In this document: piece by piece, positions 1-18,944 of the stretch
Layout of the letters: the number at the start of each line of letters is the position of its first letter
How positions within the stretch are numbered: position 1 is the stretch's first letter
Assembly (NCBI RefSeq): GCF_001028705.1
Contig: NZ_CP011770.1
Location: 1 to 64,000, forward strand
Source: Croceicoccus naphthovorans
GTDB lineage: Bacteria > Pseudomonadota > Alphaproteobacteria > Sphingomonadales > Sphingomonadaceae
DNA: 64,000 nucleotides
Direction: 5' to 3'
The notes under the pieces: generated by a model
The model's database searches: none
The model's input: the letters and a program-made list of their open reading frames with translations, nothing else
What the model was told of the DNA's origin: nothing
Program-made: the position numbers and the translations under genes

Positions 1-2
1 CC

Positions 3-59
3 GGCTTTCCCGTACGCGTTCTGGTGACGCGCGATATTGTGCTGGAGGGTGGAGCATGA
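3..59 (+). CDS. trbI: TrbI C-terminal tail (partial, runs off the left edge)
   Basis: Only the last 18 codons are present, reading GFPVRVLVTRDIVLEGGA and a stop. This matches the usual C-terminus of TrbI/VirB10, the inner-to-outer membrane spanning part of a type IV conjugation channel. The stop TGA overlaps the ATG of the next gene (ATGA), as expected at the end of a trb operon where DUF2274 follows trbI. The rest lies left of the window, so the call rests on the short tail plus the neighbour. Confidence 0.6.
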   Translation, partial: GFPVRVLVTRDIVLEGGA

Positions 60-291
60 CCCGGCTCAAGCTCTCCGACATTACCGATGGCAAGCCCGTC
101 AAGCTGACGATAGAGATCCCTGCGCGGCTCCATCGCCGGCTGGTCGAATATGGGGTCGTGCTCAATGGCGGCGTTTCAGAGGTGCACCCGAGCCCGCAGC
201 TCTGATCCCACCAATGATCGAGCGCTTCGTCGCCAGTGACCGGGATTTCGCCAAGGCACGCAGAAGAACGCATGCATCATCAAGTCGATAA
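56..291 (+). pseudogene. DUF2274 protein of the trb operon, frameshifted
   Basis: The N-terminal half (MTRLKLSDITDGKPVKLTIE and on to LVEYGVVLNGG) reads from 56 in one frame and stops near 205. The C-terminal half (PEPAALIPPMIERF, then FAKARR) reads in the next frame to the stop at 289-291. Together they give the DUF2274 pattern: basic N-terminus, 'KPVK(L/V)T(I/V)E' strand, then 'P..LI.PM..RF.A.DR.FAKARR'. One missing base around 165-200 explains the break. DUF2274 proteins typically close trb conjugation operons on ICEs; molecular function is unknown to me. Start codon overlaps the trbI stop. Confidence 0.7.
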
Positions 292-582
292 GTTCTGAGA
301 CTGTCCGGACTTTTTCTGGTTTCTCTTAACCAGTATTAGAAAAGAAATGTGCCAATAGGTAGAATTGCTCTGTATTCCTGTACATGATCGGCTCTACTGT
401 CGATCGGGAATTCAGGTTCCTCGCGACCGGGTGGCGATGCTCATGTCCAGGCTCCTCGCTAAACCATCGATGCACTTGCCAACGAGTGCTTCCATCACCC
501 GGTCGCACCTCATTTGTCGGACTATCTGTTTATAATTCCATTATAAGTTGGCCCCATCTGGCCATGCTCTTCATGCTCTGAC
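292..582 (+). other. Spacer between conjugation tail and lasso peptide locus
   Basis: About 290 bases with no convincing gene; short open frames here lack ribosome sites and family resemblance. AT-rich stretches around 525-548 (tttataattccattataag) could hold a promoter for the lasso operon, but no clear -35/-10 pair can be assigned. Confidence 0.4.
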
Positions 583-601
583 CGCGACGATTGGAGTCGC
601 G
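583..601 (+). promoter_or_regulatory. Hairpin just upstream of the lasso precursor ribosome site
   Basis: CGCGAC (583-588) and GTCGCG (596-601) form a perfect 6-bp inverted repeat with a 7-base loop. It lies 9 bases before the Shine-Dalgarno GAGGAG (611-616) of the precursor gene at 623. It could be a 5'-UTR stem or a repressor site. This is inference from position only. Confidence 0.3.
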
Positions 602-622
602 ATCAAAGCAGAGGAGTGATCA

Positions 623-759
623 ATGAAGGAACTCGACACAATCCAGAGAGAGATCATCGATCTCGGCAGCGCATCCGAGGAGACCAAGGGCGACGCCCTG
701 TTCGACATCGATGTGAGCGGCGGTCGTTTGTCCTATGCCACCGCATGGCTGACGACTGA
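623..759 (+). CDS. Lasso peptide precursor (sphingopyxin II-like), one base missing in the core
   Basis: Shine-Dalgarno GAGGAG precedes ATG 623. The leader MKELDTIQREIIDLGSASEE ends TK, with the lasso leader pattern (hydrophobic, L, x3, G, x5, T at position -2: 'IIDLGSASEETK'). The core opens GDALFDIDVSGG, so Gly1 and Asp8 would close an eight-residue macrolactam. As given, the frame runs on past the core without a stop. Adding one G in the ACCGCAT at 740-746 (making ACCGGCAT) continues the core as RLSYATGMADD and a TGA at 757-759. That is 23 residues in total, ending in DD like other sphingomonad lasso peptides. From memory, sphingopyxin II aligns along the whole length (GEALIDQDVGGGR then QQFLTGIAQD). 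The leader should be recognised and cut by the B protein just downstream. Confidence 0.8.
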
Positions 760-815
760 ACCTCGCGAGGGCGCGTGCCGGACCTGGCCGCGCCCCTTCT
801 CCTCGTACAAACTTC

Positions 816-1429
816 ATGGTCAATCCGGATCCCGAGGCTCTCGCGTGGTGCAAGGTGAGCGAACGTTTCATCTTTCTGGACATCGCGCGGGACCGCTATT
901 TTGCGTTGGCGGACGGAGTGCAGCACGTGTTTCTCGAAAGGCTCGGCATCGAAGCCACGGTGTCCTGGCATCAGCCGCCACCACTGCGCGCCCTGCGGAC
1001 TGGCTCGTCCCACAGCGTGTTTCCCATGATATTGGTGAAGGACCTTTCCGGCTGGCCGATGTGGCCGCAGCTGTCTGGTCGCAGCGCCGGATCGAACATC
1101 GCCTTGCGCGGACATCATTCCAGACGGTCCTCGTTGAACTTCGCCACCTGACCGAGCAACGCACGCAGGGCCATTCCACCAAATCCCGGTCGGGTCCCAC
1201 AGTACGTGCTTTCGAGCAAGCCCGCCTTCTGCGTTCGGCCGCAGACCGCTGTCTCCCGCGTTCGATCGCGTTGAAATTACGCCTCGCCAAGCTGAGACTG
1301 CGCACGCATCTTGTTATTGGCGTGAAGGACCGGCCGTTCGGTGCCCACGCCTGGGTCCAGCATCGCGACATTGTGCTGAATGACAGCTTGGAAGAAGTTC
1401 GGCGCTACACGCCGATACTGATAATTTGA
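816..1429 (+). pseudogene. Lasso peptide B protein (RRE + transglutaminase-like leader protease), frameshifted
   Basis: The N-terminal part from 816 (WCKVSERFIFLDIARDRYFA) is the RiPP recognition element fold (B1), which binds the leader. The C-terminal part, in another frame and ending at 1429, is the B2 cysteine protease. It shows catalytic Cys in DRCLPRS (TGT 1250-1252), His in FGAHAWVQ (CAC 1346-1348) and Asp in VLND, then the typical YTPIL end. A single lost base near 1000 separates the halves; rejoined length is about 204 residues, normal for a fused B1-B2. Its TGA overlaps the next start (TTGA). It removes the leader in the cytoplasm before cyclisation by C. No clear Shine-Dalgarno precedes 816, so the exact start is open. 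Confidence 0.8.
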
Positions 1430-3167
1430 AACAGGGCCGCTTCGTGCTTGCCGTCCCGCGTCGGCGTGGCGTCCCGCCGGTCGTTCGCAGAAGCGCAAGT
1501 CCTGACGATGTTTGCGGTGACAATGCTTCATTCTGGACCAGCGATGACACTCCCGAAGCCAGTCTGGGAACGCACGGGTACCTGATCGGGTGCGTCTTCT
1601 CTGCACAAACCGCCCGAACGGTCGACGCTGTCCCGCTACCTGAATCCGAGTCCGTCCAGGCCGCCGCCAAGCGGCTTGTTCGGAATTATTGGGGTGCCTA
1701 CGTCGCGATCCTGCCTGATCCGGGGCGCCGCACTCTTGCGTTGCTGGTCGATCCCTCTGGCCTGTTTCCGGTCTACCGCGGAATGAGCCAGACGCATGTG
1801 GTGTTCTCTTCCGATGCCTGTCTGGTCGGAGAAGCTGTCGGAGATCGCCTCAAGGTCGACTGGGGCGCGCTCGCGTTGTTCCTTCGTTATCCGGAATTGC
1901 GGCAGAAGCAAGCGTGCCTCGCGGGCGTGGAGGAGCTCACCCCGGGTACGCTCATGGTGACCGCCGGCGATCAGGAATCCGAGCTGCCCGTCTGGCGCGC
2001 TGCCGATTATCTTCCGCGAGGAACCGAACCTTCATTCAGCGATGCTGCCGCAGAACTGAGAGAGCTGGCAATCCGGACTTGCGCAGCATGGACAGACCGG
2101 TTCGGACCCGTGGCTGTCGCAACCTCTGGCGGGGTCGACTCTTCCTTTCTGTGCGCCGCGCTAGCCGCCGGGCACAGTGATTTTGGATGCATCACGCTGG
2201 CGACCTCTGACAGCAGCGGCGACGAAAGCGAGTATGCTCGGCTACTTGCCGAGCATCTGGGTGCGGATTTCACACGGCGGGTTTATGATACGACCTGTTA
2301 CCGTCCCACCGCATGTGCCTCCGCGGGTCGTTCGCGGCCCGGTCGAAAGGGGTTTCTGACGGCGGTCGACGCCCTGCTCGCCGCGGGTTCTGCAGAGCTG
2401 GGAAAAGCCACCGTCCTAGATGGCAATGGCGGTGATAATCTCTTCTGTTTTCTCCATTCCGCAGCACCGATCGTAGACCGGGCTGCGGAACGAGGGGCCA
2501 AGGGCGGCGCTTTCGAAACTCTGCCAGACATGTGCGTGTCACAGGTTGCGATTTCCGACCATGCTGCGCGCGACCGGCAAGCGTCTGATGGGAGGCCATT
2601 CGAAACAGAATTGGCGCCAGACAGCCGATTGCTTGCCGATGCGCCATCTTGGAGGACTCACCCGTACCGTTGACGCCGTGGCATCGCCTGTCGACCTGGC
2701 GCCACCCAGGCAAACACGATCACTTCGCGCTGATCATGCGCGCGCAGCATCATGTACACGGCTTCGGTCCCGGCCAGCGCGCTTCTCTCCGCTGATGAGC
2801 CAGCCCCTGCTCGAATTCTGCCTCGGCGTCCCCACCTGGACCTGGGTGACAGGCGGTCAGAACCGTGCGCTCGCCCGCGCCGCCTTCGCGGACCTGCTTC
2901 CTCGCAGCGTTCTCGATCGCACGTCCAAGGCGGGACCCGACAGTTTCATTCGAAGTGCCTTCGACCGTCATCCGCGCCGTGCTTCGTGATCTGCTTCTCG
3001 ATGGCCAACTGGCGGAACAAGGTGTGATTGATCGCGCAGCTGTCGAGCAGGCTTTCACGCTCGAAACATCGCGGCGCGGATCGCTGGTTTACCGCCTGCT
3101 CGACCTCGTCGAGGCCGAGAACTGGTCGCGCTCATGGGAGCGAGCTGCGACCATCCGAGCATCGTAG
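1426..3167 (+). pseudogene. Lasso peptide cyclase C (asparagine synthetase homologue), frameshifted
   Basis: ATP-dependent lasso cyclase that adenylates the ring Asp and joins it to Gly1. The PP-loop ATP site SGGVDSS is at 2125-2145, and the N-terminal half is a degenerate glutamine-amidotransferase fold without an N-terminal Cys, as in lasso C enzymes. A second hallmark, DGNGGDNLFCF, follows at about 2420-2450. The C-terminal helical part appears in pieces: HPGKHDHFALIMRAQHH near 2710, LMSQPLLEFCLGVPTWTW near 2795, and AVLRDLLLDGQLAEQG onward to the stop at 3165-3167. The pieces need several one-base corrections (about 2290, 2540, 2795, 2970). Rejoined length is about 580 residues, normal for the family. 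The start is probably TTG 1426, coupled to B through a TTGA overlap. Confidence 0.78.
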
Positions 3168-5280
3168 GTCCTTTCGGGCGGCGCGCCATCCATTGCAAGC
3201 CACCGTGCATATTGCCCGACCTTTGCCGGGTCGCAGTCCATCCGCTTCATCAACCAAAATTCGAACCATTCCACCGATCGCCGGTAGATTGCCTGACGGT
3301 GTGCGGGCTGCCACTTGATGTGGTCTCGTCTTCCAGGACGTAGAGTTCGATCGGTCTGCCGCCGGTACGAGTAGGTCTCGAAGACATCGAGGCCCGCTTC
3401 ATATTCGCTGTCGCCGGTCTGAATCAGGATCGGCACATCGACATCATCGACATTGAGAATGAGCGACATCGGTTTCCAGAACTCTTCGGTGCCAGGCTCG
3501 AAATGGCGGTATCCCATCGCGCGTACGAAATCTGTAAAGCGCGGACCCGCGGCGAGTGGGTAAGAATACATGTCTTCGCAGCATGAGCCCATCGACGCGA
3601 CCTGGAAGAGGTCCGAATTGATCAACGCCCACTGGACGGTCGATCCGCCATCGCTGAAGCCGCTGATGCCCATCCGTGCGCGATCGACCGAACCGGTATC
3701 GATGGCGAGCGAGATCGCAGTCTCGAGCGAGGATTGGACTCGGCGACGGTCAATCCAGTCTGCGCGGTTGGCGCGGGTCAGTTCCTCTTCGGTGGTCGCG
3801 CCAAGCGCCGCGGCAGAGAAGTCCGGGCGATCGAAACTGAGCACGGCGAAACCGCGGTTGGCAAGCGGATGGATGGGGACCTCGTCCCCGGTACCGCCGC
3901 GCAGGAACCCTACACTTGTATATTGCACGACGATCAGGGGATGACGTTGCCCGGCCTGGTGGTCCGGTGGCAGGACAAGATCCGCATAGCTTTCGGCCCG
4001 AAGGCGTTGCGGAACCTGAGGCGCTCAACGGTCCCGAAGGTCCTTTCTTCAAGCCGTGGATTGGGATCGTGTATGAGCCGGTCTGCTCCGGTGACGACAT
4101 CGATTGCAACCAGACGGCGAGGCTGACCGAACCCTTCGCGGCCGCACAGCAATTCGCCGCCGGCCACTGTGCATCCGACCAACGCATCTTCGGTAAGCAG
4201 GATCTGGCGCGGCTGCGCCTCGCCAAGCTCCCATCGCAAAATGGCCGTCTGACTGTTTGCCCAGCCCGTCGCTTGGAGGGCGAGTAGCGCGGTTCCATCG
4301 CTCGACCACCACAGCTCGCGGATCCCTTCGCAAGCTTTTTGTTCGCAGACTATCTGATTGCCGTCAGGCCACCCGACGACAAGCCTGGTGGGGCTGATCA
4401 GCCGAGTGGGCTCGCTCGGCTCGAGCCAGGCCGCAATCCCCGAGTCATTCTCGGCATAGGCGCGGGCTCTAGCCGGGAGGCCCTCTGGCGCTTCGCCCGA
4501 GAGCAGGCGCGCTTCTTCCGAACTCGCGACCCACACTTCGCCATCCGCCAGCGACACGTAGCTATAGTGCGTTTCAAGCTGTCCGGTCGGGATTGGCCGA
4601 TCGGCGAATTGCGGCGAGAAACGCTCGTCGAACAAAAATCCTTCGGCCGCTTCGCGTGCGATAGCCTCTGACTGGATGCGTATGCCGGGACGCGTCGCGA
4701 CTATCAGTGCAGTTCCGTCGTTCGTCCATGCGAAACTATCGACATTATCGGGAAGGGCGGTTGCCTGTCGCGGTGGTACCGTTCGGTCAGGATCGACCAG
4801 CCATACCTGGGTCGAACCGTTCAACCTCTTGAGATAGCCGATCCGGGAGCCGTCCGAAGACCAGCGGGGCGGGTTGGGCCTGTCCCATCCGGCCATAATC
4901 GCGGGAAAGTCGCGCAATCGGAAATCATCGCGGATGAATTCGCCGCCCCGGTCGACCTCGACGGCGGCACCGCTTCCGTCCATCGCCGCAATCATAAGCC
5001 TCTGGCAGTAGACGTTGGCTTCCGGATTTGCGCGTTTTACGACGAAAGCGATGTGCTCGCCGTCGGGCGCTACGCCGATGGCCCGCGCAGCGCCGACCGG
5101 ATTGGCGCGTCCGATGTCCGCCATCCTGACCTGGTCATCGAGCGTAAAGGCCCGCTGGCCAATGCCCGATAGACCCTCCGCCTCTTCGAAACCTGCACAC
5201 GGATCCTCTTGCGGCGGCGGCAGGTCCACGTGCGGAACGATGGATTGGGACAGCGCTGCAGCGAGTGCCAGCGACATCAC
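3089..5280 (-). pseudogene. Lasso peptide isopeptidase (S9 prolyl-oligopeptidase family), one frameshift
   Basis: Two abutting frames make one protein of about 730 residues. The N-terminal part (5280 to about 3990) has a short secretion-like start and a beta-propeller with repeated WSSDG/WTNDG blades. The C-terminal alpha/beta-hydrolase part carries the nucleophile Ser in GISGFSDGGS, an Asp in LIQTGDSEYEAG and the His in KWQPAHR. The last motif is typical of the isopeptidases that open lasso rings in astexin-type loci. The break is near 3985: a CCGAAAGC where CCGGAAAGC would keep the frame. ATG 5280 overlaps the receptor stop (ATGA), so the two are one operon. The enzyme probably linearises imported lasso peptide. 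The 3' end runs 79 bases into the convergent C gene. Confidence 0.8.
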
Positions 5281-7634
5281 CAGTGCCTCCGGATTCCGAA
5301 TGCGACAAACCGTCCGATCGGGGAGTAGTTCGTCGAATCAAAAGGCGTATCGGTCGGGCCCGTCTGTCCAATGATCTCGGGTTCGTCATCGAACACGTTT
5401 TGCACGGTCAGCGACAGTGTGAGTCCGGGGTTGCGTCCTTCGCCACCGATCACATCGTAGCTCACGCCAAGATCGAGTGTGGCGCTTGGCGACAGACGTT
5501 CCGCCACGCCGAAACGTGGATCTTCCAGTGCTCCTATATAATTGACTGCCGCATTGGCCTTGAAAGTGCCGGCTTCGAAGCGGGCCACGCCGCGTGCGCG
5601 GTATTGCGGCGGATTAAAAATCGTCCCGGCGAGCTGAACCTGCGGTAGGTCGGAATTCAGGCGCTGGTTGCTGTCGAGCCAGCTGCCAGCGACTTCCAGA
5701 CCCAGTCTGCGCTGATTGCCGAGGTCGTGGTCCCACGAAATCCGCGCATCGATCCCTTCGACTGCCCAGACGGCGACATTGCGATTGCGGTTGTCGATGA
5801 AGGCTACGACATTGGCCGGATCATAAGGCGAGCCGGAAAAATTTTCGAGGCCGAACAAAGAATTGTCGATCAGCCCGGAAAAGATTGCGGGATCGGGCGA
5901 GAAATCGATCAGGCTTGCATAACCCGGATCGCGAAAACCGGCGACAACCGATCCCGCAATCGGGCGAACCACCCGGTCGCGATAGCGAATGTCATACCAG
6001 GTGGCCGATACGAGCAAACCCGGCACTGACGGCGGACGATATTCGAAACCGGCTGTCCAGCTGTGCGCGCGTTCCGAGGTGACATCCGGGTTGCCGCCGC
6101 TTGCTATAAAGACGGTTTCCGGAGCCGTACCCGCGCCGAAGATCGACGCTGGCAGCACGATGGTCTGGTACGGAATGAACCTCTGGTAAAGCGTTGGAGC
6201 CTTGAACGATCTCGCCCAGCTTCCCCGCAGGGTCAAGCCGGGGACGGGTGCGTAGACCAAGCCCATGCGCGGCGTGGTCTGGCTGTCGAGACCGGGATAG
6301 CTTTCGTGCCGTGCGGCCAGCGAGAGGCCTAGCTCGTCGATACCTCCAATCGCATTGCGCGACGACACCAACGGGAGGAACAGCTCCCCATAGGCAAAGC
6401 GGGCCCGCTGCGTTTCGTCGAAAGCGATAACGAGATTGCCGCCTTCCGAGCGGGAGAAATCGAGCGAATTATCGCGCAAGCCAGCACCAATTGCGAGGCG
6501 CGCATCGCCTCCCGGCAACGAAAAGAGTGGCCCTTCCGCACCTGCTTCGAGCGATAGCACCTCGTTGCAGAAGCAGCCTTCGGTCACGCTTGTCGGGGCG
6601 GACGGCCGTGTAAACGTAGTGCGGTAGCGCGTCCTGTCGCGTCCAAAAACGCCGAGCACAGACAGCTGCCACGAAGCTCCGATATCGACCCTGAGCGACG
6701 GTGCGAGCGTATAGGATTCGACCACTGGATCCGCGGTCTGACGGAGCGTGGAAGACCCGGTGATGCGAACCGAACTGCGCCGCGAATAAAGTGCATCGAC
6801 GCTTGCCTCGATACCGGGTGATATTTCGTGATGTCCGGAAAGCGTGACGGCATGCCGTTCCTGCGACGGAAACAGCGTGGTCTCGGGGTCGAGCGCGGCC
6901 GCATAAGATCGCTGGCCCGCCTCGATATCGGAGTTGTTGGTGAAATCGTAGGCGAGGAAAAATCCGCCGCCATCCCACCGGCTTCCACCGACGATATCGG
7001 CCTGCTGGCGAAAATATCCGCCACCGGTGCTCGCGCCGATCTGCGCCGATGTTTCCACGCCTTCGAAATCACGGCGCAGGATTACATTGACCACGCCGGC
7101 GACAGCGTCGGACCCGTATAGCGCCGACGCGCCGTCCGGGACGACCTCGATCCGGTCTACCGCCGCGAGCGGGATTGCCGAAATATCGACCCCTGCGAAG
7201 GCGGAATCGTACGGAAGGCGATGGCCATTGAGGAGCGTAAGTGTCGCATCGGGACCCAGACCGCGCAGGTTCGGAGTGGCCGCAGAGTTCACGTTGCTGT
7301 TGATGAGCCCGGCACCCGAACCCACTCCGGGGTTCTGACCGCCCGAGAAATTCTGGGGTAGGCTGCGGATCGCTTCACCCAGATCCACCTGGCCAGCCTC
7401 GACGATCGTCTCGCGATCAAGCTCGATGACTTCACCGACAACCCGTGCGCCTCGGATTCGCGTTCCCGTGACAACGATCGCAGAACTTTCGTCGTCCAAA
7501 GCCGTATCGCCAACCTCGGCAGCGTCATCTTGTGCCTGTTCGCCTGGACTGTCTTGGGCGAAAAGAGGAGGAGCGGCACTTGCGAATGCTGTCCCGGTTA
7601 GAAGGACGAAAAGTGTGCGATTTCTCAATGACAT
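5277..7634 (-). CDS. TonB-dependent receptor of the lasso peptide locus
   Basis: Intact 785-residue outer-membrane receptor. It has a signal peptide (MSLRNRTLFVLLTGTAFASA to about residue 26, LFAQ cleavage region), then a plug domain starting IVVTGTRIRG with GASALYGSDAVAGVVNVIL. A 22-strand barrel should follow, ending in the aromatic residue W (GIRRHW). There is no N-terminal signalling (STN) domain, so it is unlikely to talk directly to an anti-sigma factor. Lasso loci of the isopeptidase type pair this receptor with the hydrolase downstream, which suggests uptake of the lasso peptide or its ligand complex. It is translated in coupling with the isopeptidase through a 4-base overlap. Confidence 0.88.
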   Translation of the reverse strand: MSLRNRTLFVLLTGTAFASAAPPLFAQDSPGEQAQDDAAEVGDTALDDESSAIVVTGTRIRGARVVGEVIELDRETIVEAGQVDLGEAIRSLPQNFSGGQNPGVGSGAGLINSNVNSAATPNLRGLGPDATLTLLNGHRLPYDSAFAGVDISAIPLAAVDRIEVVPDGASALYGSDAVAGVVNVILRRDFEGVETSAQIGASTGGGYFRQQADIVGGSRWDGGGFFLAYDFTNNSDIEAGQRSYAAALDPETTLFPSQERHAVTLSGHHEISPGIEASVDALYSRRSSVRITGSSTLRQTADPVVESYTLAPSLRVDIGASWQLSVLGVFGRDRTRYRTTFTRPSAPTSVTEGCFCNEVLSLEAGAEGPLFSLPGGDARLAIGAGLRDNSLDFSRSEGGNLVIAFDETQRARFAYGELFLPLVSSRNAIGGIDELGLSLAARHESYPGLDSQTTPRMGLVYAPVPGLTLRGSWARSFKAPTLYQRFIPYQTIVLPASIFGAGTAPETVFIASGGNPDVTSERAHSWTAGFEYRPPSVPGLLVSATWYDIRYRDRVVRPIAGSVVAGFRDPGYASLIDFSPDPAIFSGLIDNSLFGLENFSGSPYDPANVVAFIDNRNRNVAVWAVEGIDARISWDHDLGNQRRLGLEVAGSWLDSNQRLNSDLPQVQLAGTIFNPPQYRARGVARFEAGTFKANAAVNYIGALEDPRFGVAERLSPSATLDLGVSYDVIGGEGRNPGLTLSLTVQNVFDDEPEIIGQTGPTDTPFDSTNYSPIGRFVAFGIRRHW

Positions 7635-7703
7635 TGGGGTCTCCCTGTTCTGGCGCGGTCGGGCCGCTACAGGGAATGACGCTCACTTTTTCGAACACCT
7701 TAG

Positions 7704-7715
7704 TTTCATTTGAAA
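7704..7715. promoter_or_regulatory. Palindrome upstream of the lasso receptor gene
   Basis: TTTCATTTGAAA is a perfect 12-bp palindrome 70 bases upstream of the receptor start (7634, minus) and just downstream of the sigma factor gene. The surroundings are AT-rich compared with the rest. It could be an operator or part of a promoter for the receptor-isopeptidase pair. No regulator can be assigned. Confidence 0.3.
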
Positions 7716-7754
7716 TTAAAGTTTGGGGGGTCTTTTTGTGCCGGGTGGTTGCAG

Positions 7755-8375
7755 TCACCAACTGTGACCCAGCGCTTGGCGCAAATGCGCTAGAGCTTTC
7801 ATCATATGATAGTCGACCGTGGGCAGCGCGATGCCTAGCTCGAGATGTATCTGACGGTAGGATTTCTTCTCGATGCGATTCATCGCGAAGATACGCGCGG
7901 TCTTTTGCGGGAGCTCCGCGAGCGCGATTTCCAGCACGTGCCGGGCTTCACGAACGTGCACGGCATCTTCCTGCGCGGCGCGGCTTGGCGCATCTGCGTT
8001 CTCCAGAAGTGGCTGGGTCCTGACGCGGCACTTTTGCCGCCGCGCCTCGTCCACCAGCAAGTTGAATGCAATCCGCCTCAGAAAGCCTGCAGGATTAACG
8101 AGTTCCGTTAGCTGCTTGCTGGTCGCTGCACGCAGAAACACGTCCTGTGCCAGGTCGCGGGCGCGTTCGGAGCCCACGCGGCGCGCAAGATAGGCGATCA
8201 GTCCAGCCCGTTCCTCGCGGTAGAGGGCGTCGAGTGTACGGCGGCGGTCGACCGTTCGGCTTACTTTTGCAGAGCAATATGCGGGACCCACGCACTGGGG
8301 AGCTTGGTGCCGGATTTCGGCGACAGCTTGAGTCATGCTTCGAACTTGGAGGCGACCGCCACCTGAGTTCGCCAT
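7755..8375 (-). CDS. ECF (FecI-like) RNA polymerase sigma factor
   Basis: The protein of up to 206 residues contains sigma region 2 (LYREERAGLIAYLARRVG, then ARDLAQDVFLRA) and region 4 (LAELPQKTARIFAMNRIEK, then SYRQIHLELGIALPTVDYH as the helix-turn-helix). It lies directly upstream of the receptor-isopeptidase operon on the same strand, as in many sphingomonad lasso loci, and probably drives that operon. The usual FecR anti-sigma gene, normally between sigma factor and receptor, is absent. Only 120 bases separate the two genes. The N-terminus is uncertain: a second ATG at 8336 would give a shorter product, and neither has a strong ribosome site. Confidence 0.82.
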   Translation of the reverse strand: MANSGGGRLQVRSMTQAVAEIRHQAPQCVGPAYCSAKVSRTVDRRRTLDALYREERAGLIAYLARRVGSERARDLAQDVFLRAATSKQLTELVNPAGFLRRIAFNLLVDEARRQKCRVRTQPLLENADAPSRAAQEDAVHVREARHVLEIALAELPQKTARIFAMNRIEKKSYRQIHLELGIALPTVDYHMMKALAHLRQALGHSW

Positions 8376-8730
8376 GGCGAACTGGTGCGGGTTCCAGGTC
8401 TGTGCCGCCGTCCGGGGCCTGATTTACGCCCCTTGATCGGTTCGGCCGCCGGGCCTGCGACGGACCGGCGTGCATGATGTCCGGCGGAAATATCCACGCG
8501 GACGGTGCCAGAATATCAATCCGCGCGCAGTCAATCTGCCCAACATAGGAGTGGCTGGCAAGAGGTAAGTAGAGCCATTTTGGACCCGCTTTTGGCGGCC
8601 AGCATCATCTTCCAAAAAAATGCTCCGGTCTCGGGGAGCGCCTGATCAAATATGCCCAATATTGGGGAAGTGGATACCTTGGTCTTGGAATGTCGGCGCG
8701 GTGCTGGCGCCACTAGCCCAATCGGCGAGA
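8376..8730. other. Non-coding stretch between divergent sigma factor and DUF2285 gene
   Basis: About 355 bases between the starts of two divergent genes. The open frames here are antisense shadows without ribosome sites. It should contain both promoters. I see no repeat or clear motif other than the Shine-Dalgarno at its right edge. Confidence 0.4.
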
Positions 8731-8743
8731 AAGGAGGTGCTTC

Positions 8744-9527
8744 ATGGCTCGACCATTCGACAGCAACGACCGGACCGCCGGATACGACTTTTCGGATTTC
8801 GCGCAGGAATTCTTGCGCCGCAATTCCGCTTACCGGCAACAATACGCCCGGATCGCCGGCGCAAGCGGCTTCGACGCGCAATCCCCAGCTTGCCGCCGAA
8901 TGGCGCGTTCATGGGGCCTTGAATTTCCCGATTGATCCCGACCTTTCGGCTCGCAGCGATCCGGCGATCTGGCGAGCTGAGGAAAACCCCAATGTTGTAA
9001 TTCTCAGCGGTAGCGGCGGAGTCAAGGCGGCGCGCGCAGCGTGCGACCTGATCGCCAAACGAGCGAGCAATGCGGGAGATCATCTGGTCCTCGCCGATAC
9101 TGGCGCTCGTCACCGGCTGCTCGTTATGGCCTCAGCCCGGTTGGGTGGAGACAATTATCTGATCCCTCAAGACCAGTCGGTTCCGATCAGGCTAGCGGCG
9201 CTCGATGCGTTTCACCGCTGCGTTGCTGGCTCCGCTGTGCCCACCAAGCGATACCCCTTACGGCCCACCACCTATCAGTCCAGACGCCTCCACTTGCTGC
9301 TCGCCATACTCGATAATCAGGCCAGAGCGCCTGAGGGTGTCACCCTCCGAGAGATTGCGGGAACCCTCGTCTATCGCGGATTATCCGCGCAACGCGCCAT
9401 AGACTGGAAATCGTCATCGCAACGCCGACAGACCCAGCGTCTTGTCGCCGAAGCACGGAAGATGGCGTCGCACGGCTATCTCGACCTGCTTCGTCAAAGC
9501 CGGTTCCGACCTTTTCAAACGCACTGA
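8744..9527 (+). pseudogene. ICE-type DUF6499/DUF2285 DNA-binding protein, frameshifted
   Basis: A very strong Shine-Dalgarno, AAGGAGGTG (8731-8739), sets the ATG at 8744. The first frame gives the DUF6499 domain (YDFSDFAQEFLRRNSAYRQQY and on to WGLEFP). It breaks at about 8930 in TTTCCCGATTGA. The next frame continues DPDLSARSDPAIWRAEENP and the DUF2285 domain (VPIRLAALDAFHRCV; SRRLHLLLAILDNQAR; REIAGTLVYRG; RLVAEARKMASHGYLDLLR) to the stop at 9527. One base removed from the CCC run restores the frame. Such proteins sit in the regulatory/replication module of conjugative elements in alphaproteobacteria. The role is probably transcriptional control of the element, by context only. Confidence 0.75.
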
Positions 9528-9711
9528 ATGCACTATGGTTTTTCCTTGGGCAAGCCGCTGAATTTTGTGGCGCGCCCGGATTGGAACCAGACCTTCAGGG
9601 TCGCAACTGCAACTGCCGGAACAGGTGGAATGGAACCGTCTGATCAGGCACCGAGCAGGCGGTCGGGTGGCGGCGTGTTGGATTGCGTGCTGCCGATCGA
9701 ACGGCAGGTCT

Positions 9712-10464
9712 ATGTACGCATATCTCGCGGAGGAATTCGCAACTGAGCTTATCAATGTTCGTTCGGACACTGAACTCGATGGCGCCCTTAAACAGGTTTC
9801 CCGGCGCCTTGGCTTCGACCACTTCGCACTTAGCCTGGAGATGCGTTCGACATCGTGCGAGGCACCGGGCTTGCTATTGCACGACTATCCCGACGAATGG
9901 GCGAAAGTCTATATCGCCTTCGACCTCGCAGGGCAGGATCCGGTGCGAAGAGCCTGCGACAAGACCATCATCGGTTTCGCCTGGGACTGGATTGACGAAC
10001 TCGTCCCTCTCACGCGCGGCGACCGTCAGATGCTCAATGTTGGCCGGGAATGCGGAATTGGCAATGGCTATACCGTTCCGCGGCACTTACCCGGGATAGG
10101 GCGCGGTACCTGCACCTTTGCTGTTCGACCCGATCGAGAACTGCCCCGACGGCGTTTCGCCGTCGCGGAAGTGATCGGGACGCTGGCTTTGAGCTGTGCA
10201 CTGGGACTGAGCTCAGAAAGACTCGATGAGAAGGTTCCCTCCCTGACCGATCGGCAGCGGGAGTGTCTGCTCTGGGTTGCAAGAGGGAAGACTGCAGCTG
10301 AAACGGCCATGATTCTCGAAATCAGCACCGAAACCGTCATTCAGCATCTCAAGATGGCCCGCGAACGCTACCAGGTCCATTGTAAGCAGTCCCTCGTCGT
10401 CGCGGCGCTGTTCGACGGGTTGATCGGGTTTGCCGACATCATCCGTTGGCGCGACGTCGGATAG
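9712..10464 (+). CDS. luxR: LuxR-family acyl-homoserine-lactone receptor
   Basis: The 250-residue quorum-sensing regulator is intact. The N-terminal autoinducer-binding domain keeps the diagnostic W-x3-Y-x8-D-P-V pattern (EWAKVYIAFDLAGQDPV), which contacts the lactone in TraR/LuxR. The C-terminal helix-turn-helix reads LTDRQRECLLWVARGKTAAE, then ISTETVIQHLKMAR. An upstream in-frame extension to 9565 has no family resemblance, so ATG 9712 is preferred. The cognate synthase (luxI) lies 6.4 kb downstream, separated by a mercury operon and a two-component pair. That suggests later insertion between an originally closer pair. Confidence 0.85.
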   Translation: MYAYLAEEFATELINVRSDTELDGALKQVSRRLGFDHFALSLEMRSTSCEAPGLLLHDYPDEWAKVYIAFDLAGQDPVRRACDKTIIGFAWDWIDELVPLTRGDRQMLNVGRECGIGNGYTVPRHLPGIGRGTCTFAVRPDRELPRRRFAVAEVIGTLALSCALGLSSERLDEKVPSLTDRQRECLLWVARGKTAAETAMILEISTETVIQHLKMARERYQVHCKQSLVVAALFDGLIGFADIIRWRDVG

Positions 10465-10492
10465 ACGCACCAGATGCGTCGAAACGTTTCAG

Positions 10493-10519
10493 TTAATCGA
10501 CCTCAGCTTCGTCGATTAA
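10493..10519. repeat. Perfect 9-bp inverted repeat between convergent genes
   Basis: TTAATCGAC (10493-10501) and GTCGATTAA (10511-10519) with a 9-base spacer. It lies 28 bases past the luxR stop and about 90 bases past the end of the convergent oxidoreductase gene. It lacks a T-tract, so it is either a weak bidirectional terminator or a protein-binding site, perhaps marking the edge of the inserted mercury module. Confidence 0.4.
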
Positions 10520-10611
10520 ACTCGAGCATGCAGTGTTACGGTGCAGGCATCTCTCTGCGTCGCCAGATCAGAATATGCCGAATTCCTTATTCAACCGCTT
10601 CTTCAACACAA

Positions 10612-11970
10612 TCACACCATCGAGCCAAGGTCCGATCCCACGCTAGGGTAGGCCGAAACCATTTTCTTGAGATCGCTTGTTGTCAGTCCAAGTCGGACGG
10701 CCAAACCGAAGAAATTGATGATCTCGCCATGCTCCGGTCCGAGCAAATGAGCGCCCAGGATAGTGTCGCATTCGTTATCGATTATGACCTTGGTTGCAGC
10801 GCAGCTTTCGCCAACGCGAAGGTTGGAATACCAGTCGCCGGTGTCATTTTCGACGACGCGGATATCATGTCTGGCCTCTCGTGCTTCCTCTTCGAGCATG
10901 CCAACACGGCTGAGCTCTGGTACCGTAAATACAGCGCTCGGTACGCCTGCATAATCCGGCTTTGTCCGATTGCCGTTGAGCATATTGGACGCAGCTACCT
11001 TGCCCTCGAAAACTGCGACAGGCGTAAGCGGCGCGCCTTGCGTGTCGGCCGCGTCGCCGGCAGCATAGATCTTGGGGTTGGAGGTGCTTTGCAGGTAGGC
11101 GTTGACCTCAACGCCCTTGTCACCTGCCTCGACATTGGCTGCGGCCAGGTCAAGCCGGCCAATTGCCGGGACGCGGCCCGCGCCGTGGACGACGAGATCG
11201 GCGCGCAAATCTTTCGTGCCGCTGTCAGTTTCTACCGTGACAAGAAAACCCGTCCCGTCCTTCTCGATCGCTTTGAGTGACGTGCGTCGTCGCAGTTGGA
11301 CGCCGACTTCCTCGCCCCGCGCAACGAGTCTTTCGACAAGATCGGCATCGAAACCCTTGAGCGGTCTCTCGCCACGGTCGATGATGCACACCTTGCTGCC
11401 CGCGCGTGCTGCGATATGGCCAAACTCGAACGAGATGAAGCCGCCGCCGATGAACAGGATGCGTTCGGGCAGCGCATCGAGCCGCATGAACTCGGTGCTG
11501 TCGGTAAGGTGTTCGGAGCCGGGAACATCTATCGTCCGCGGCTTGGCACCCGTTGCGATCAGGAAATGGTTTGCCTGAAACTGCCCCTCGCCGTCGATTT
11601 CGACGGTATCTTCGCCGACGAAGCGCGCTTTCCCGTGAAGGGTAGTGACGCCGTTGCTCTCCAGACCGTTTTCGATCCGACCGGGCATTTTGTCGGTGAA
11701 CGTCTGCGTGAAGGCGACCAGATCGGGCCAGTTGATGGCGATGTCGTTCGGTTCGATGCCCTTGCCGTGCATGAGCCGCGCTGCGTCGATGATTTCCGCC
11801 CCGCGGCGGAGCATTTTCTTCGGATCGCAGCCGCGCAGGGCGCAGGTGCCGCCATAAGGCAGTTCGTCGACTACCGCGACCGACCAACCGGCTGAGGCGC
11901 ATTTGTTGGCGGCATTTACGGCCGCCATACCAACACCCAGCACTATAAGATCGAAGTTTCGCGTACTCAT
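10612..11970 (-). CDS. MerA-like FAD/NAD(P) pyridine nucleotide-disulfide oxidoreductase
   Basis: ATG 11970 follows a GGAGGG ribosome site one base after the upstream stop; the 452-residue protein is intact. FAD-binding LIVLGVGMAAVNAA, redox-active pair in GGTCALRGCDPKK (CxxxxC), NAD(P)-binding ILFIGGGFISFEFG, second FAD motif IYAAGDAADT and a C-terminal dimerisation domain are all present. It is in the mercuric reductase position of the operon. It lacks the N-terminal MerP-like domain and the C-terminal vicinal Cys pair that deliver Hg(II) in classical MerA (the end reads VGSDLGSMV). The substrate is therefore open; a metal or other disulfide-like substrate is possible. It is last in an operon with merT, merP and the GDCC protein. 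Confidence 0.85.
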   Translation of the reverse strand: MSTRNFDLIVLGVGMAAVNAANKCASAGWSVAVVDELPYGGTCALRGCDPKKMLRRGAEIIDAARLMHGKGIEPNDIAINWPDLVAFTQTFTDKMPGRIENGLESNGVTTLHGKARFVGEDTVEIDGEGQFQANHFLIATGAKPRTIDVPGSEHLTDSTEFMRLDALPERILFIGGGFISFEFGHIAARAGSKVCIIDRGERPLKGFDADLVERLVARGEEVGVQLRRRTSLKAIEKDGTGFLVTVETDSGTKDLRADLVVHGAGRVPAIGRLDLAAANVEAGDKGVEVNAYLQSTSNPKIYAAGDAADTQGAPLTPVAVFEGKVAASNMLNGNRTKPDYAGVPSAVFTVPELSRVGMLEEEAREARHDIRVVENDTGDWYSNLRVGESCAATKVIIDNECDTILGAHLLGPEHGEIINFFGLAVRLGLTTSDLKKMVSAYPSVGSDLGSMV

Positions 11971-11971
11971 C

Positions 11972-12202
11972 TCACCGCCCTCCGCAACATGTGGCGCCCT
12001 TGCGATCGGCACGCGTTTCCTGGATCGGCGGGCAGGGGATGGTGCCGAATGAGCAGAAGACACAGCAATCGCCCGCATTGGGGCGGAGTTTCACACCGCA
12101 ACCATTGCAATCGTAGAAAAACCAGCAGGCATCCGTCGGCATTCTTTCGAGCTTTTTGTACCCGCAAGTAGGGCATGTGATCTCGGACTTCAGTTTGATC
12201 AT
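11972..12202 (-). CDS. Small cysteine-rich GDCC-motif mercury-operon protein
   Basis: The 76-residue protein has 10 Cys: CPTCGYKK and CNGCG pairs, then the family motif GDCCVFCSFGTIPCPPIQ, and a terminal CCGG. Proteins with this motif accompany MerT/MerP in alphaproteobacterial mercury operons and probably bind the metal; the reaction is unknown. The ATG overlaps the merP stop (ATGA), and its own TGA is one base before the oxidoreductase ATG, so translation is coupled on both sides. Confidence 0.82.
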   Translation of the reverse strand: MIKLKSEITCPTCGYKKLERMPTDACWFFYDCNGCGVKLRPNAGDCCVFCSFGTIPCPPIQETRADRKGATCCGGR

Positions 12203-12540
12203 AGCGCGCTCTCTGAAAGGATCGCCGGATATCCGGCCTCGGTCGACGCCGCGGCGATCGCGCTTGTGGTTGTTCGCTCAGGATCGAACTGCGCAGTCGC
12301 CGTCCTGGTCTCGTAATCGATAGTCACCTCGTGCACGCCTGCCACGCCTTCCATCGCGCGCCGAACCGTTATCGGGCAGGTCGCGCAGGTCATATTCTCG
12401 ACCGCAAAACTTGCCGATTGCAGATGCGCGGAATTTTGTTGAACCCGTTCGTCGGAGTTTGGCGGAAACAAGGTCGCTGCCCAGATACCCGCTCCGGCCA
12501 GTCCCAGTATCGCAACTGCGACGATCATCGTCTTCTTCAT
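12199..12540 (-). CDS. merP: MerP-like periplasmic heavy-metal-binding protein
   Basis: The 113-residue protein has an N-terminal signal/anchor segment (MIVAVAILGLAGAGIWAATL) and then an HMA domain with the metal motif MTCATCP and the GV.EVTIDYETRTATAQFDP strand pattern. It would bind Hg(II) in the periplasm and pass it to MerT. Its ribosome site AGGAG (within CTAGGAG) immediately abuts the inserted IS, so initiation is preserved but the natural promoter beyond merT is cut off. Confidence 0.85.
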   Translation of the reverse strand: MKKTMIVAVAILGLAGAGIWAATLFPPNSDERVQQNSAHLQSASFAVENMTCATCPITVRRAMEGVAGVHEVTIDYETRTATAQFDPERTTTSAIAAASTEAGYPAILSESAL

Positions 12541-12551
12541 CTTTCGAACTC

Positions 12552-12555
12552 CTAG
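12552..12555. repeat. CTAG target duplication, left copy (IS1380-family insertion)
   Basis: CTAG at 12552-12555 repeats at 14191-14194 on the other side of the element. The right copy supplies the merT stop codon and the left copy leads into the merP ribosome site. Confidence 0.7.
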
Positions 12556-14190
12556 CCCGTCTTATTCACGGGGTTGGCTACGAAGGGTGGCGGAGTGGCA
12601 TAAGCCTCTGATCTGAATTAGGAACTGGGTGTCTACACCGGCCTGCTGCAGGGCAGAAAATGCCACAGGCCACACCCGCCATGAACGACGATATCGCAAG
12701 CCCCTTCCGATTCCCAGCGGTCGACCGCCAAGAAAGTCACAGCCGCGTTCGACGGTGGTCGGCTCACTTCGGACGGCGGCGTTCTGTTGCTGTCGCAGGC
12801 CGAGCGGCGATGGGTATCTGCCAGCGGCTTGCGACTTGCATTGCCGATCCGCGCGATCCTGCGCGGGTGATCCATCGCCTCGACGACATCCTGCGTGCCC
12901 GCGTGTTCGCGATCGCCTGCGGCTATGAGGATGCCGACGATCTCGATGCCCTGCGCGACGATCCGGGCTTCCGCCTGGCCTGGGCAAGCTGCCGGGATCG
13001 GGCGCGGGGCTGGCCAGCCAACCGACGATGAGCCGGTGGGAGAATGCACGATCACGCGCGAGTTGGCGAAGATGCTGGCCGCGATGATCGACATTACTGC
13101 GCCAGCTATCCGGCCCCGCCGGCGGCGGTGACGCTGGATATCGATGATACCTGCGATGTCGTCCATGGCTATCAGCAGTTGTCGTTCTGGAATGGTCATC
13201 ATGGCGAGCGTTGCTTCCTGCCGATCCATGTCTACGACACCGCCACTGGCCGCCGGTGGCGATGCTGCTGCGCACCGGCAAGACACCGTCTGGTGTTGAA
13301 GCTGCCGGTCACATCCGGCGCCTCGTGCGCCACATCCGCCGGCAATGGCCCGAAACGCACATCACCATCCGCGGCGACGGGCACTATGGCGGCCCGAGGT
13401 CATGGCCGTCTGCGAGGGTTGCGGCGTCGACTACGTGTTTCGGCCTGCCGACCAACGCCGTGCTACGCGCCGATCCCGAAATCGTCGTTGCCGCCGATGC
13501 CTGTGCGGTCAAACGCGCTCAGCGCCAGTACCCGGTCCTGCGCACCTATGCCGAGACCCGCTACGGGCCAAAAGCTGGAAGTGCCAGCGCCGCGTCGTCG
13601 CCCGGATCGAGGCCAGTACGATGGGCATGGACATCCGCTATGTCGTCACTTCGCTGACCGAAGGCTCGGCCGAGCACATCTATGATACGCTCTACCTGCG
13701 CGCGCGGTCAGGCCGAAAACCTGATCAAGCTGCACAAGACCCAGCTGGCCACGATCGCACCTCGTGCCGCTCTCCCAACGCCAATCAGATGCGCCTCATC
13801 CTGCACACCGCCGCATACTGGCTCTGTGGCGCATTCAGCAGGAAATCCCAAGCAGCCTCGCTCGCGACCGCCGAGTTCGCAACGTTGCGCCTCAGGCTGC
13901 TCAAGGTCGCTGCCCGCCGTCAGTTGAGAGCGCCACTCGCATCCGTGTCGCCTTCGCGTCAGGCCTGTCCGATGCCTCCGTTTGGAAAGCCATCGCCACA
14001 ATCTCAGGCCTGCACCTACTTAGGCGGTGCGGCTGTGCGCCGAACTCCGAGCTCCATTCCATCAACCTCGAAAAGCCCATTGATCCTGACGCGGTGAAAA
14101 ATGCCGTCGAAGACGCTCGCCCGGACTACGCCGCCAACGTCAGATCAAGGCCCATCCACTTCGCTGCTGCGGCCTCATGAATAAACCGGG
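12556..14190. mobile_element. IS1380-family insertion sequence between merP and merT
   Basis: 1635 bp with imperfect terminal inverted repeats: the left end reads CCCGTCTTATTCACG and the right end, reversed, CCCGGTTTATTCATG. It is flanked by a 4-bp CTAG duplication. Size, 4-bp duplication and transposase identity fit IS1380. Removing the element and one CTAG recreates merT ending ..TTC TAC TAG followed by GAGTTCGAAAG and the merP ATG, a 10-base intercistronic gap. The element therefore landed exactly on the merT stop codon without destroying either gene. Confidence 0.85.
12681..14023 (+). pseudogene. IS1380-family transposase, multiply frameshifted
   Basis: Fragments in all three plus frames line up in order: MNDDIASPFRFPAVDR at the start, LRARVFAIACGYEDADD, PAAVTLDIDDTCDVVHGYQQ (first DDE aspartate region), HITIRGDGHYG (second), EGSAEHIYDTLYCARGQAEN (Glu region), and RLILHTAAYWL near the end. 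This is the IS1380 transposase layout of about 440 residues. At least six one-base shifts break it as written, so no functional protein could be made from this sequence. The end is approximate. Confidence 0.8.
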
Positions 14191-14550
14191 CTAGTAGAAT
14201 TGCGGCGCCCACCACTCGACCGTGGACGAGGCAGCGACCAATACGGTCGCCAGCCACAGGGAGCTTTTGACGAGCAGGTTTGCTCCGGGCCGCGCGCAAT
14301 ATGTTCCGTCTTCGCAGGTTCGGCTTGCCGAAAATAGACGTGCCGGAATCCAAGGGCCAAAAAGACAACCGCAATGGCGATAAATACCCATTTGTACGGT
14401 TCGAGCGCAGTGAGATTGCCGATCCACGCGCCGCTGATGCAAGGCTCAGCAATAACAGCGGGCAATACAGCAGGACGAGGCGAGTATCGGCGCGAGCGGT
14501 CCCGCGCTCGCCCATAAGCGCTGCGCGTTCTTGTGCATTTGATCGACCAT
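14191..14550 (-). pseudogene. merT: MerT mercuric transport protein, frameshifted
   Basis: The reading starts at ATG 14550 (MVDQMHKNAQRLWASAG, then LAPILASSCCIAP with the first-helix Cys pair). It continues in other frames as SGAWIGNLTALEPYKWVFIA, then IAVVFLALGFRHVYF, then LLVKSSLWLATVLVAASS and WWAPQFY with stop TAG. Three membrane helices and the Cys pair are those of the inner-membrane Hg(II) importer MerT. Three single-base losses are needed (for example GCCCCG read as GCCCG, and CTTGGC as CTTGC). Its stop codon lies inside the CTAG target site of the IS. Confidence 0.8.
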
Positions 14551-14601
14551 GGAAACCAATGTACTCCCTGTGTAACTACAGGTTCAAGCACTAATTGGCA
14601 T

Positions 14602-15061
14602 ATGGTCATGACAGCATCGCAAGTGATCAAACGGGGAGAACTGGCCAGACGGTCGGGCTGCAACCTTGAGACAATCCGCTACTACGAGAACATCGGTCTG
14701 CTTCAGCCTCCGAGCGTACGGCAAGCGGGCACAGGCTCTATCACCGGCGACCAGGCGCGGCTCGGCTTTATCTTGCGCAGGCCGCGATCTGGGTTTTTCG
14801 ATCGAGGAGCTCAAAAGCCTGCCTCAGCCTCGTTGATTCGCACCCCTACAGCTGCGGCGAGGTTCGGGATCTGACAATAACCATCTGGCCAGCGTGCGAG
14901 CTAAAATTGCTGATTTGACTAGGTTGGAGCGCACGCTAGCCGATGTATCAGCCCGCTGCGAAGGCGGTGATGTTCCGGAATGCCCCATCATAGATACGCT
15001 CTTTGGTCGTGGTCCTGGCGCCGATAGTGACGCAATGCGTCGGAACGGGTGCGCGTCTTGA
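14602..15061 (+). pseudogene. merR: MerR-type mercury regulator, frameshifted
   Basis: Divergent from merT. The N-terminal winged helix (GELARRSGCNLETIRYYENI, then GLLQPP) is in one frame. Later pieces give LGFSIEELKSL, SHPYSCGEVRDLT, the dimerisation helix VRAKIADLTRLERTLADVSA and the metal loop CEGGDVPECPIIDTLFG. Cys residues match the three Hg ligands of MerR (near 79, 114 and 123 in the family). About four one-base shifts occur between 14720 and 14880. It would repress and activate the merT promoter in the 51-base gap to 14550. Confidence 0.78.
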
Positions 15062-15162
15062 AGCTATTTCGATCGAAGCCGGATGCGACGAGGCGAGGAA
15101 CGAATATGCGCCCTGTCCGTCCCTCACTACAGAGCCTTGTCATTTAACTTTGATAGCCTTCC

Positions 15163-15564
15163 ATGCCGACCACCATTCTGATTGTCGAAGACGAATTCCT
15201 CATAGCTGTCGAAATGGAGGCGGTGGTTCACGATCTCGGTCATGAATCCGCAGGCATAGCCGACGACATGCAATCGGCATTGGCAAAGGCTTCAGACGCG
15301 ATCGATGTGGCGCTCGTCGATGTCAATCTGGCCGATGAGCCACTGGTCGAGGATCGGCGAGAAGCTTGCTGCGGATTTCGGGATCGAGGTTATTTTCGTA
15401 ACCGCCAATCCCGCACAACTCGGCGAAGGGGTGAGCGGAACGCTGGGCGCGCTGGAAAAACCGGTCGATCTTAGCATTCTCAAGCAGGTTCTCGACTATG
15501 TCATTGCGGTCCGGAAGGGCGAAAAATCGATCCGCCAGCCCGTCTTAGGCTCTTCTTTAACTAG
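15163..15564 (+). pseudogene. Single-domain response regulator, frameshifted
   Basis: CheY-like receiver of about 133 residues: MPTTILIVEDEFLIAVEMEA with the acidic pair (ED), phospho-acceptor Asp in VALVDVNLAD, Thr/Ala switch VIFVTANPAQ and the Lys in LEKPVD. The frame is lost after VDVNLAD (near 15340) and returns near the end (RLRLFFN, stop 15562-15564). It is convergent with the histidine kinase, their 3' ends overlapping by 8 bases, so they likely form a cognate pair. No output domain is present. Confidence 0.75.
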
Positions 15565-16630
15565 GCTCCTGCAACCTGCTTTTTCGGACATCCATGACGA
15601 GTTCAACGCCATCGTCATGCCAGGTTCTCTCGTAATTGCCTCCTAGCTGTTGCTTCACGGCCAACTCGATGAGGCGACTTCCGAAACCCGTTTGAGGCTC
15701 ACTCGCCTTGTCGATGTGAGCTCCGTGTTCCCTCCAGCGGAAGCGGACCATCTCGTCCTCGGTTGAAAGGTCCAGCGAAATCCTTCCCTCGGGATTGGAC
15801 AGAGCTCCGTACTTCATCGCGTTGGTAGCCAGCTCGTGGAACACCAATGCAACCGGCGTGGCGGCGCGGCTTTCGACCGCGATATCGGGGCCGGAAATAG
15901 CAATCCTTCTTTCGGAAAAGGCAGGATAGGTCTCGAAGATCGTCGCAAGCAGCGTGGCGAGGGTCACTTCCTTGCCCTCGGGCTGGGACTTTTCGCTGTG
16001 GGGCCGGACGAATTCGTGCGCGCGCCCCAGCGCGAAATCCGGCCCAGCAGGTCGCGCGACGCTTCACCGAACGCTTCATTTGCGCGCGCTGTCAGGCTGA
16101 TCAAACCGGAAACAATCGCGAAGATGTTCTTGATGCGATGGCTGAGCTCTTGACTCAGGATTTCGTTTTGGAGGCGGTGCGCTTCTGCTCGTCGATATCC
16201 GTACAAGTGCCGATCCAGCGCTGGATCTCACCCTCCTCGTTGAGGATCGGCAGCGCACGACCGATCATCCAGCGATAATCACCGCGTGATGCCTCAGGCG
16301 ATATTCAACCTCGTACGGTTCGCCGGTAGCGAGGCTGTGGTTCCATTTCTTCCATGCGTCGGCCTGGTCTCCTCATGGAACATCCCGGCCCATCCTTCCG
16401 CCGTCGGTTGATCCGACAGGGACACCCGTGAATTCATACCAGCGGCATTGTAATAATCGTGGAGCCGTCGGGAAGAGTCGACCATACCATCTGCGGCATG
16501 GTGTCGGCGAGCGCATGGAAAGCAGCTCCGGCGGATTGCAGCGATGCTCTGTAGCCAGGGGCAAGACATCAGGCGCCGAAGAGGATTCGCGGCTGCCAAG
16601 CTGGAAGTTCGTGATGACTTTTGCATTCAT
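15557..16630 (-). pseudogene. PAS-HWE/HisKA_2 sensor histidine kinase, frameshifted
   Basis: Start MNAKVITNFQLGSRESSS at 16630. A PAS domain follows in pieces (DYYNAAWYEFTGVPVGSTDG; W.GMFHEED; typical HWE-kinase input). The dimerisation helix shows the phospho-acceptor His in LSQELSHRIKNIFAIVSGLI. The ATPase part has the N box VALVFHELATNAMKYGAL and TGFGSRLIELAVKQQLGG. At least five one-base shifts are needed. No membrane segment is visible, so it is probably a cytosolic sensor. Partner: the adjacent single-domain receiver. Confidence 0.78.
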
Positions 16631-16742
16631 AGCCAGCTTGTGACCTTCTCGGGATGAACAGAATCGGACCGATAGGATACCTGTCGTATCTTGTTGATTT
16701 TCAATCGCTGAAGCTCATCGCACAGGTAAGGCGGTCAGTAAA

Positions 16743-18930: not shown

Positions 18931-18944
18931 CCCTCGCCAATGAG

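Follow-up and report, generated by a model that had tools for sequence, protein, structure and literature searches.

Contig C1 very probably carries a lasso peptide cluster of the isopeptidase type that is intact but is seen here at a contig end of a circular chromosome assembly that is rich in errors and was left untrimmed. Relatives such as Erythrobacter sp. AP23 place the bacterium in the order Sphingomonadales. The window, the whole 64,000-base stretch of DNA that was analysed, is bases 1–64000 of this contig (3,543,806 bases). The cluster is considered intact because a second copy at the other contig end and the copies in relatives have a closed frame for the precursor gene A and open genes for the B protein, C protein, isopeptidase, receptor and FecI-like sigma factor. 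The one-base repair of gene A that was made in the initial annotation without tools proved exactly right, and the cause of the break was the untrimmed contig end. Therefore, when small-peptide genes appear broken at contig ends, the other end should be checked before they are labelled as pseudogenes.

The lasso precursor gene A is located at 623..759 on the forward strand. The frame from the ATG at 623 showed a 22-residue leader, with Thr at position −2 as the initial annotation had read it, followed by GDALFDIDVSGGRLSYAT. Thr at −2 is the usual mark of lasso precursor cleavage, and the leader/core junction is ...EETK|GDALFDID, which gives Gly1 and Asp8. One G is absent at 743/744 in the window copy, and the unrepaired frame of 268 residues stays open to 1429 and enters the B gene. 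Adding a G at 743/744 closes the frame as ...TGMADD, with TGA at 757–759. The intact product has 45 aa, comprising the 22-aa leader and the 23-aa core GDALFDIDVSGGRLSYATGMADD. The core codons lie at 689..756 (+), and the predicted isopeptide bond joins Gly1 to Asp8, leaving residues 9–23 as the tail.

The intact copy of gene A (C1:3525092-3525229) has ACCGGCAT in place of ACCGCAT at window 740–746. The G missing from the window is present in this copy at C1:3525213 and in the alignment of Erythrobacter sp. AP23 (NZ_LNBY01000019.1), so the base and the place near 742 had both been named exactly. The second copy reads MKELDTIQREIIDLGSASEETK|GDALFDIDVSGGRLSYATGMADD and then a stop, its full product being MKELDTIQREIIDLGSASEETKGDALFDIDVSGGRLSYATGMADD, and the proposed 23-residue core ending in ...TGMADD plus TGA can thus be read there directly. 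The closed 45-residue frame is also open in AP23 and in G178, a genome of another genus. The peptide had been expected to be missed by gene finders; it is not lost to them in this assembly because the intact copy is present at the other contig end.

Profile searches agreed with the repaired frame. The window frame scored 30.7 bits against NCBIfam NF033522, below the cut-off of 33, and the intact gene passed with 39.8 bits. Against Pfam PF24178 (cut-off 27), the window frame scored 32.8 bits and the intact gene 39.7 bits, with its whole length matched. PF24178 also matched full-length at C1:3525092-3525223 in the same genome; both places pass the cut-off, which was passed in 0 of 14 control genomes. 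Judged by sequence, the gene A match is beyond chance. The search of solved structures with gene A returned two zinc-finger matches only (E 0.45 and 0.52).

The last 19,340 bases of C1 match the first 19,293 from first base to last base at 99.47% identity (window 1–19293 and C1:3524467-3543806), the differences being 8 mismatches and 88 gap openings. This terminal repeat has the pattern of an untrimmed overlap between the ends of a circular chromosome contig. The two copies differ by 18 indels at window 1–4000 (15 bases missing in the window and 3 extra), by zero indels at 4.0–12.0 kb, and by 70 indels and all 8 mismatches at 12.0–19.3 kb. Closeness to the contig end cannot by itself account for the error sites, because errors are dense at 12.0–19.3 kb and there are none at 4.0–12.0 kb. 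The DUF2274, B, C and isopeptidase genes of the window showed the same kind of error as gene A.

AP23 sided with the second copy at 18/18 single-base indels of window 1–4000: all 15 missing bases are present in AP23 and all 3 extra bases are absent. Its alignment with the second copy ran over 16,811 bases without a gap. The missing G is therefore an assembly error of the window copy, a verdict drawn from the two copies of this assembly and from relatives. The AP23 stretch ends at window 10748 and cannot judge 12.0–19.3 kb. In that part, the total length of frames of at least 150 aa was 1173 aa for the second copy (456, 516 and 201 aa) and 1024 aa for the window (198, 250, 406 and 170 aa). With its shorter total, the window copy is probably the poorer of the two in this part as well. 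Window frames at 1–4000 and 12000–19300 should not be trusted.

The window sequence taken alone would fit a real frameshift in a decayed precursor gene, and the B, C and isopeptidase frames are broken in the window too. However, neither the second copy nor AP23 has any of the 18 indels of window 1–4000, and all cluster genes are open in the second copy, which makes a pseudogene in this strain highly improbable. Gene A is not lost, since the second copy and relatives have it intact. The chromosome could also truly have two 19.3-kb copies, one intact and one decaying, as both are present in the assembly. This is very unlikely, since the repeat spans the contig from its first to its last base, as an untrimmed circular contig gives, and 88 gap openings against 8 mismatches are the mark of sequencing error, not decay.

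The initial annotation further stated that a single missing base produces a 268-residue fusion into the B gene. The frame does exist, staying open between 623 and 1429 and taking in the B2 domain, but it is the product of three missing bases (744, 772 and 988), not one. These bases are absent in neither the second copy nor AP23, and A and B lie at separate places in the second copy, AP23 and G178. The use of this frame as a fusion protein, or through programmed frameshifting, has next to no probability.

All six cluster genes (A, B, C, isopeptidase, receptor and FecI) have open frames in the second copy. The B protein (816..1429, +; 204 aa intact) matched Transglut_core3 with 62.6 bits (cut-off 26) and lasso_biosyn_B2 with 70.8 bits (cut-off 33), and a missing C at 988 breaks its window copy. 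Its N-terminal part had no profile match in Pfam or NCBIfam, and a comparison of the protein with solved structures gave no match up to E 1. The C protein (1426..3167, +; 581 aa intact, TTG start) is a putative lactam synthetase of the asparagine-synthase-like kind that matched Asn_synthase PF00733 with 93.4 bits (cut-off 21). It scored 30.5 bits against the NCBIfam lasso cyclase NF033535, far under the cut-off of 525, and had no match to solved structures up to E 0.001. The window copy of the C gene contains eight indels, from 2482 to 2973.

The lasso peptide isopeptidase of the Atxe2 family (3132..5280, −; 716 aa intact) scored 758.3 bits against NF033523 (cut-off 400), and its window copy has indels at 3182, 3324, 3363 and 4000. 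The TonB-dependent receptor (5277..7634, −; 785 aa) is open in both copies. Its plug (aa 69–181) scored 59.7 bits against Plug (cut-off 23.9), and its barrel (from aa 204) 96 bits against TonB_dep_Rec_b-barrel (cut-off 27). The FecI-like ECF sigma factor is encoded at 7755..8375 (−; 206 aa). The sequence between the receptor and FecI-like genes (7635–7754) contains no FecR gene, unlike that of G598, where a FecR match lies between the two (C20:37388-37657); the only FecR match in our genome is at C1:3146564, far from the cluster. The available text of a review reports a FecI/FecR regulator pair, for example for rubrinodin (PMC9266682); the pair is not a requirement for a cluster of this type.

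On the left, the cluster is preceded by the DUF2274 gene (56..291, +; 78 aa intact, G missing at 183), which lies 3′ of trbI at the end of a trb run. The right-hand neighbour encodes a protein with a RovC-type DNA-binding domain (8652..9527, +). The hand-picked ORFs scanned around the cluster gave no ABC transporter match, and neither a tRNA nor an RNA family reaching the gathering threshold was present in the window. A LuxR-type regulator with an autoinducer-binding domain is encoded near the cluster (window 9712–10464), and an ORF near 16782–17471 was autoinducer-synthase-like as judged by eye only.

A homologue search, such as the initial annotation had proposed, recovered 7 homologues from a large protein collection; in 6 of them all 23 core residues are the same as ours and the leaders vary. 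The seventh (P0005) has the same first 16 core residues and a changed end, ...LSYSTRKADE; by its sequence it is a natural tail variant. The AP23 precursor is identical to ours, and the G178 core is identical. The core had been presented as new, but its sequence is already in databases (AP23, G178 and 6/7 homologues), and by sequence the predicted peptide is a further member of the benenodin/subterisin lasso family. The literature search found no paper with the first eight core residues GDALFDID. Predicted lasso clusters have been reported from Erythrobacter species in the accessible part of one paper (PMC9723273). With our own genome counted, the precursor had a match at E up to 1e-5 in 13 of the 397 genomes searched in the family, and at E up to 1e-3 in 22 of the 396 searched in the order; gene A-like precursors are uncommon. 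Thirty related loci were compared, namely those of 28 of the 29 other genomes named in the family and order lists (G590 was left out) plus AP23 and G002.

The alignment of 18 cores included near-identical loci once, except for G178 beside our own core and G495 beside G009, and left out nine more divergent precursors. Gly1, Asp8, Gly12 and Gly19 were invariant in 18/18 cores, and Thr at −2 was present in the same precursor rows. Core position 6 was D, E, Y, F or G, and position 2 varied too. In the nine divergent precursors, position 8 as read by eye was D in seven (G608, G146, G194, G602, G433, G491 and G002) and E in two (G254 and G207). The constancy of Asp8 beside the variable position 6 supports the Gly1–Asp8 ring suggested earlier. 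The core also has Asp at positions 2 and 6, at which a ring could close instead, but both positions vary among relatives, and the available text of a review gives 7–9 as the ring-closing positions (PMC9266682). A lasso-type peptide closed at another Asp, or an unthreaded product, is thus very improbable.

One of the closest comparisons was that proposed in the initial annotation, with sphingopyxin II. The G598 precursor holds GEALIDQDVGGGRQQFLTGIAQD, which we take to be the sphingopyxin II core, and the expected likeness was confirmed by 13/23 identical residues without a gap. Both cores have 23 residues with Gly1, Asp8, Gly11-Gly12-Arg13, Thr18-Gly19 and Asp23, and ten residues differ. The gene order of G598 is the same (trbI, DUF2274, A, B, C, isopeptidase, receptor, FecI), with B, C and isopeptidase 36–49% identical to ours, but no RovC-like gene was found within its 20 kb, whereas ours has one. 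The G622 core GNALFDIDVSSGRLSYATGLAED has 19/23 residues in common with ours in the same gene order, although G622 belongs to another genus and its B and C proteins are 54–55% identical to ours. Our intact precursor passes both curated cut-offs of the benenodin family (NF033522) and Subterisin (PF24178), but its core sequence differs, and it belongs to a trb-linked subgroup with 23-residue cores.

The isopeptidase aligned with AtxE2 of Asticcacaulis excentricus (5txc) over residues 48–698 (E 2.5e-125). The Ser of a GxSxG-like stretch and the His, residues with a catalytic role, are aligned. The peptide substrates of the two enzymes differ. Sphingocin of Sphingomonas BPH, as described in the accessible part of its report (PMC11006600), resembles our peptide in a leader containing IDLGSVTEETK, in Gly1 and Asp8, and in having no ABC transporter and an isopeptidase and TonB receptor beside A-B-C. 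It differs in its 22-residue core, GPGFINNDGVGGKLPFAGLSDD (PMC11006600).

By analogy with the known lasso pathway, the B protein, with a leader-binding part and a cysteine protease, would cut before Gly1. The C protein would then activate Asp8 with ATP and join it to the amine of Gly1. The tail would be threaded through the 8-residue ring, giving a predicted product mass of 2327.04 Da, which adds a testable peptide. The peptide would leave the cell and return via the TonB receptor, and the isopeptidase would open its ring; FecI probably drives the expression of the receptor and isopeptidase. Since no transporter was found and a receptor and an isopeptidase are present, the likely cycle is one in which the returning peptide is taken up and opened. 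The ring, threading and function of the peptide are predictions from sequence.

By analogy, cargo or signal uptake would be the likeliest use of the peptide. Isopeptidase-type lassos may carry cargo in a siderophore-like manner, according to the available text of a review (PMC9266682). Killing is the less likely use, because in the same text the known isopeptidase-type lassos, astexin-1 excepted, lack antimicrobial activity (PMC9266682). In Sphingomonas BPH, a transposon in the sphingocin B gene accompanied the loss of phenanthrene use, as stated in the accessible part of that report (PMC11006600).

The region upstream of the cluster showed matches to a coupling protein, TrbE, TrbL, VirB8, a CagX-type protein and TrbI, followed by DUF2274. 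Of the 30 related loci, 22 have TrbI and DUF2274 upstream of A, a proportion that describes the subgroup only, because the loci were chosen by likeness to our precursor. The two were present in 20/20 loci of one set and 2/10 loci of another (G570 and G491), and the eight loci without them are all among the more divergent ones. TrbI was only partial in G383, G405 and G420, and the distance from DUF2274 to A was 2.6 to 7.4 kb in G616, G519, G510 and G405. No relative was found in viral_contigs, and none of the 5 plasmid records matched reached 60% identity. Among the papers listed, titles and abstract openings made no report of lasso clusters in Sphingomonadales conjugative elements apparent, which is no proof of absence.

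AP23 differed from the window by 6 substitutions and 18 indels in 10,763 aligned columns. A 3,000-base rpoB stretch of AP23 is 85% identical to that of our genome, and therefore the near-identical lasso region moved recently between distinct species. Compared with the second copy, AP23 had 235 mismatches in 16,811 bases, only 6 of them in the part shared with the window. This mosaic sequence points to a recent exchange. AP23 is about 4% different from our genome in the trb genes upstream and near-identical in the lasso region.

We put at about an even chance the proposal that trb-type conjugative elements hold the lasso locus of this subgroup as an exchangeable specificity cassette, which is replaced as a unit and carried across genera. 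Under this proposal, the precursor, B, C, isopeptidase and receptor barrel would be replaced together, and trbI, DUF2274, the N-terminal part of the receptor, FecI and the RovC-like gene would be kept. The junctions would lie just upstream of the precursor and in the plug part of the receptor gene, near codon 100. If so, peptide and receptor would change partners as a unit, much as polymorphic systems for bacteriocins or siderophores do. Specialists would be interested most in a mobile cassette that couples the peptide with its isopeptidase and receptor barrel.

Four loci (G009, G330, G260 and G570) were 91–93% identical to ours in TrbI, 86–96% in DUF2274, 91–93% in FecI and 81–88% in the RovC-like protein. 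The same loci were 48–51% identical in B, 43–54% in C, 54–59% in the isopeptidase and 54–59% in the receptor barrel, and their cores were 26–43% identical to ours. They provide only two independent comparisons, because G009, G330 and G260 are almost alike. G178, which has the identical core, was 87–96% identical over the same set of proteins. In all four loci, the receptor gene DNA was 92–100% identical over codons 21–100 and 65–80% over codons 101–240; codons 1–20 were also low in G570 (68%). In G570, DNA identity dropped within 100 bases before the A start codon, from 95/100 to 61/100, and the junction is placed upstream of A because identity already falls before the start codon. The left border was not sharp in the DNA identity of G009 and G330. 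In G420, TrbI was 99% identical (86 residues compared) and DUF2274 97% (72 residues compared), both at the edge of a contig; FecI was 64% and RovC 44% identical, and no right cassette border was seen.

Rank correlations of identities were calculated for 16 loci, a set of 22 loci less five near-duplicates and G598, in which the RovC gene is lacking; the 22-locus set did not include G491 or the eight loci that have no trb genes. In these loci, and with 1000 permutations that ignore shared ancestry, core identity correlated with C (0.58, reached by 0/1000), isopeptidase (0.59, 0/1000), receptor barrel (0.46, 1/1000) and B (0.43, 3/1000), and more weakly with the plug (0.31, 14/1000). It did not correlate with TrbI (−0.06, 676/1000), DUF2274 (−0.01, 542/1000), FecI (0.18, 128/1000), RovC (0.15, 178/1000) or the leader (0.15, 181/1000) in the 16 loci. 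The core sequence varies together with C, isopeptidase and receptor barrel, not with the neighbouring backbone. This pattern and the tie of the subgroup to conjugation genes bear on the role of isopeptidase-type lassos. The leader correlated with FecI (0.65) and RovC (0.67), and also with B (0.50), C (0.40) and isopeptidase (0.39). The correlations first suggested a leader/core swap inside gene A, which was rejected on the DNA border of G570 upstream of A.

Outside the window, an IS66-type element (about 3.09 kb) splits the trbE gene at about C1:3515328-3518415. It is absent in AP23, G178, G009 and G359, and AP23 has an 821-residue frame at this place. The short direct repeat flanking the element suggests a target duplication, and conjugation in our strain may be impaired by the interruption of trbE.
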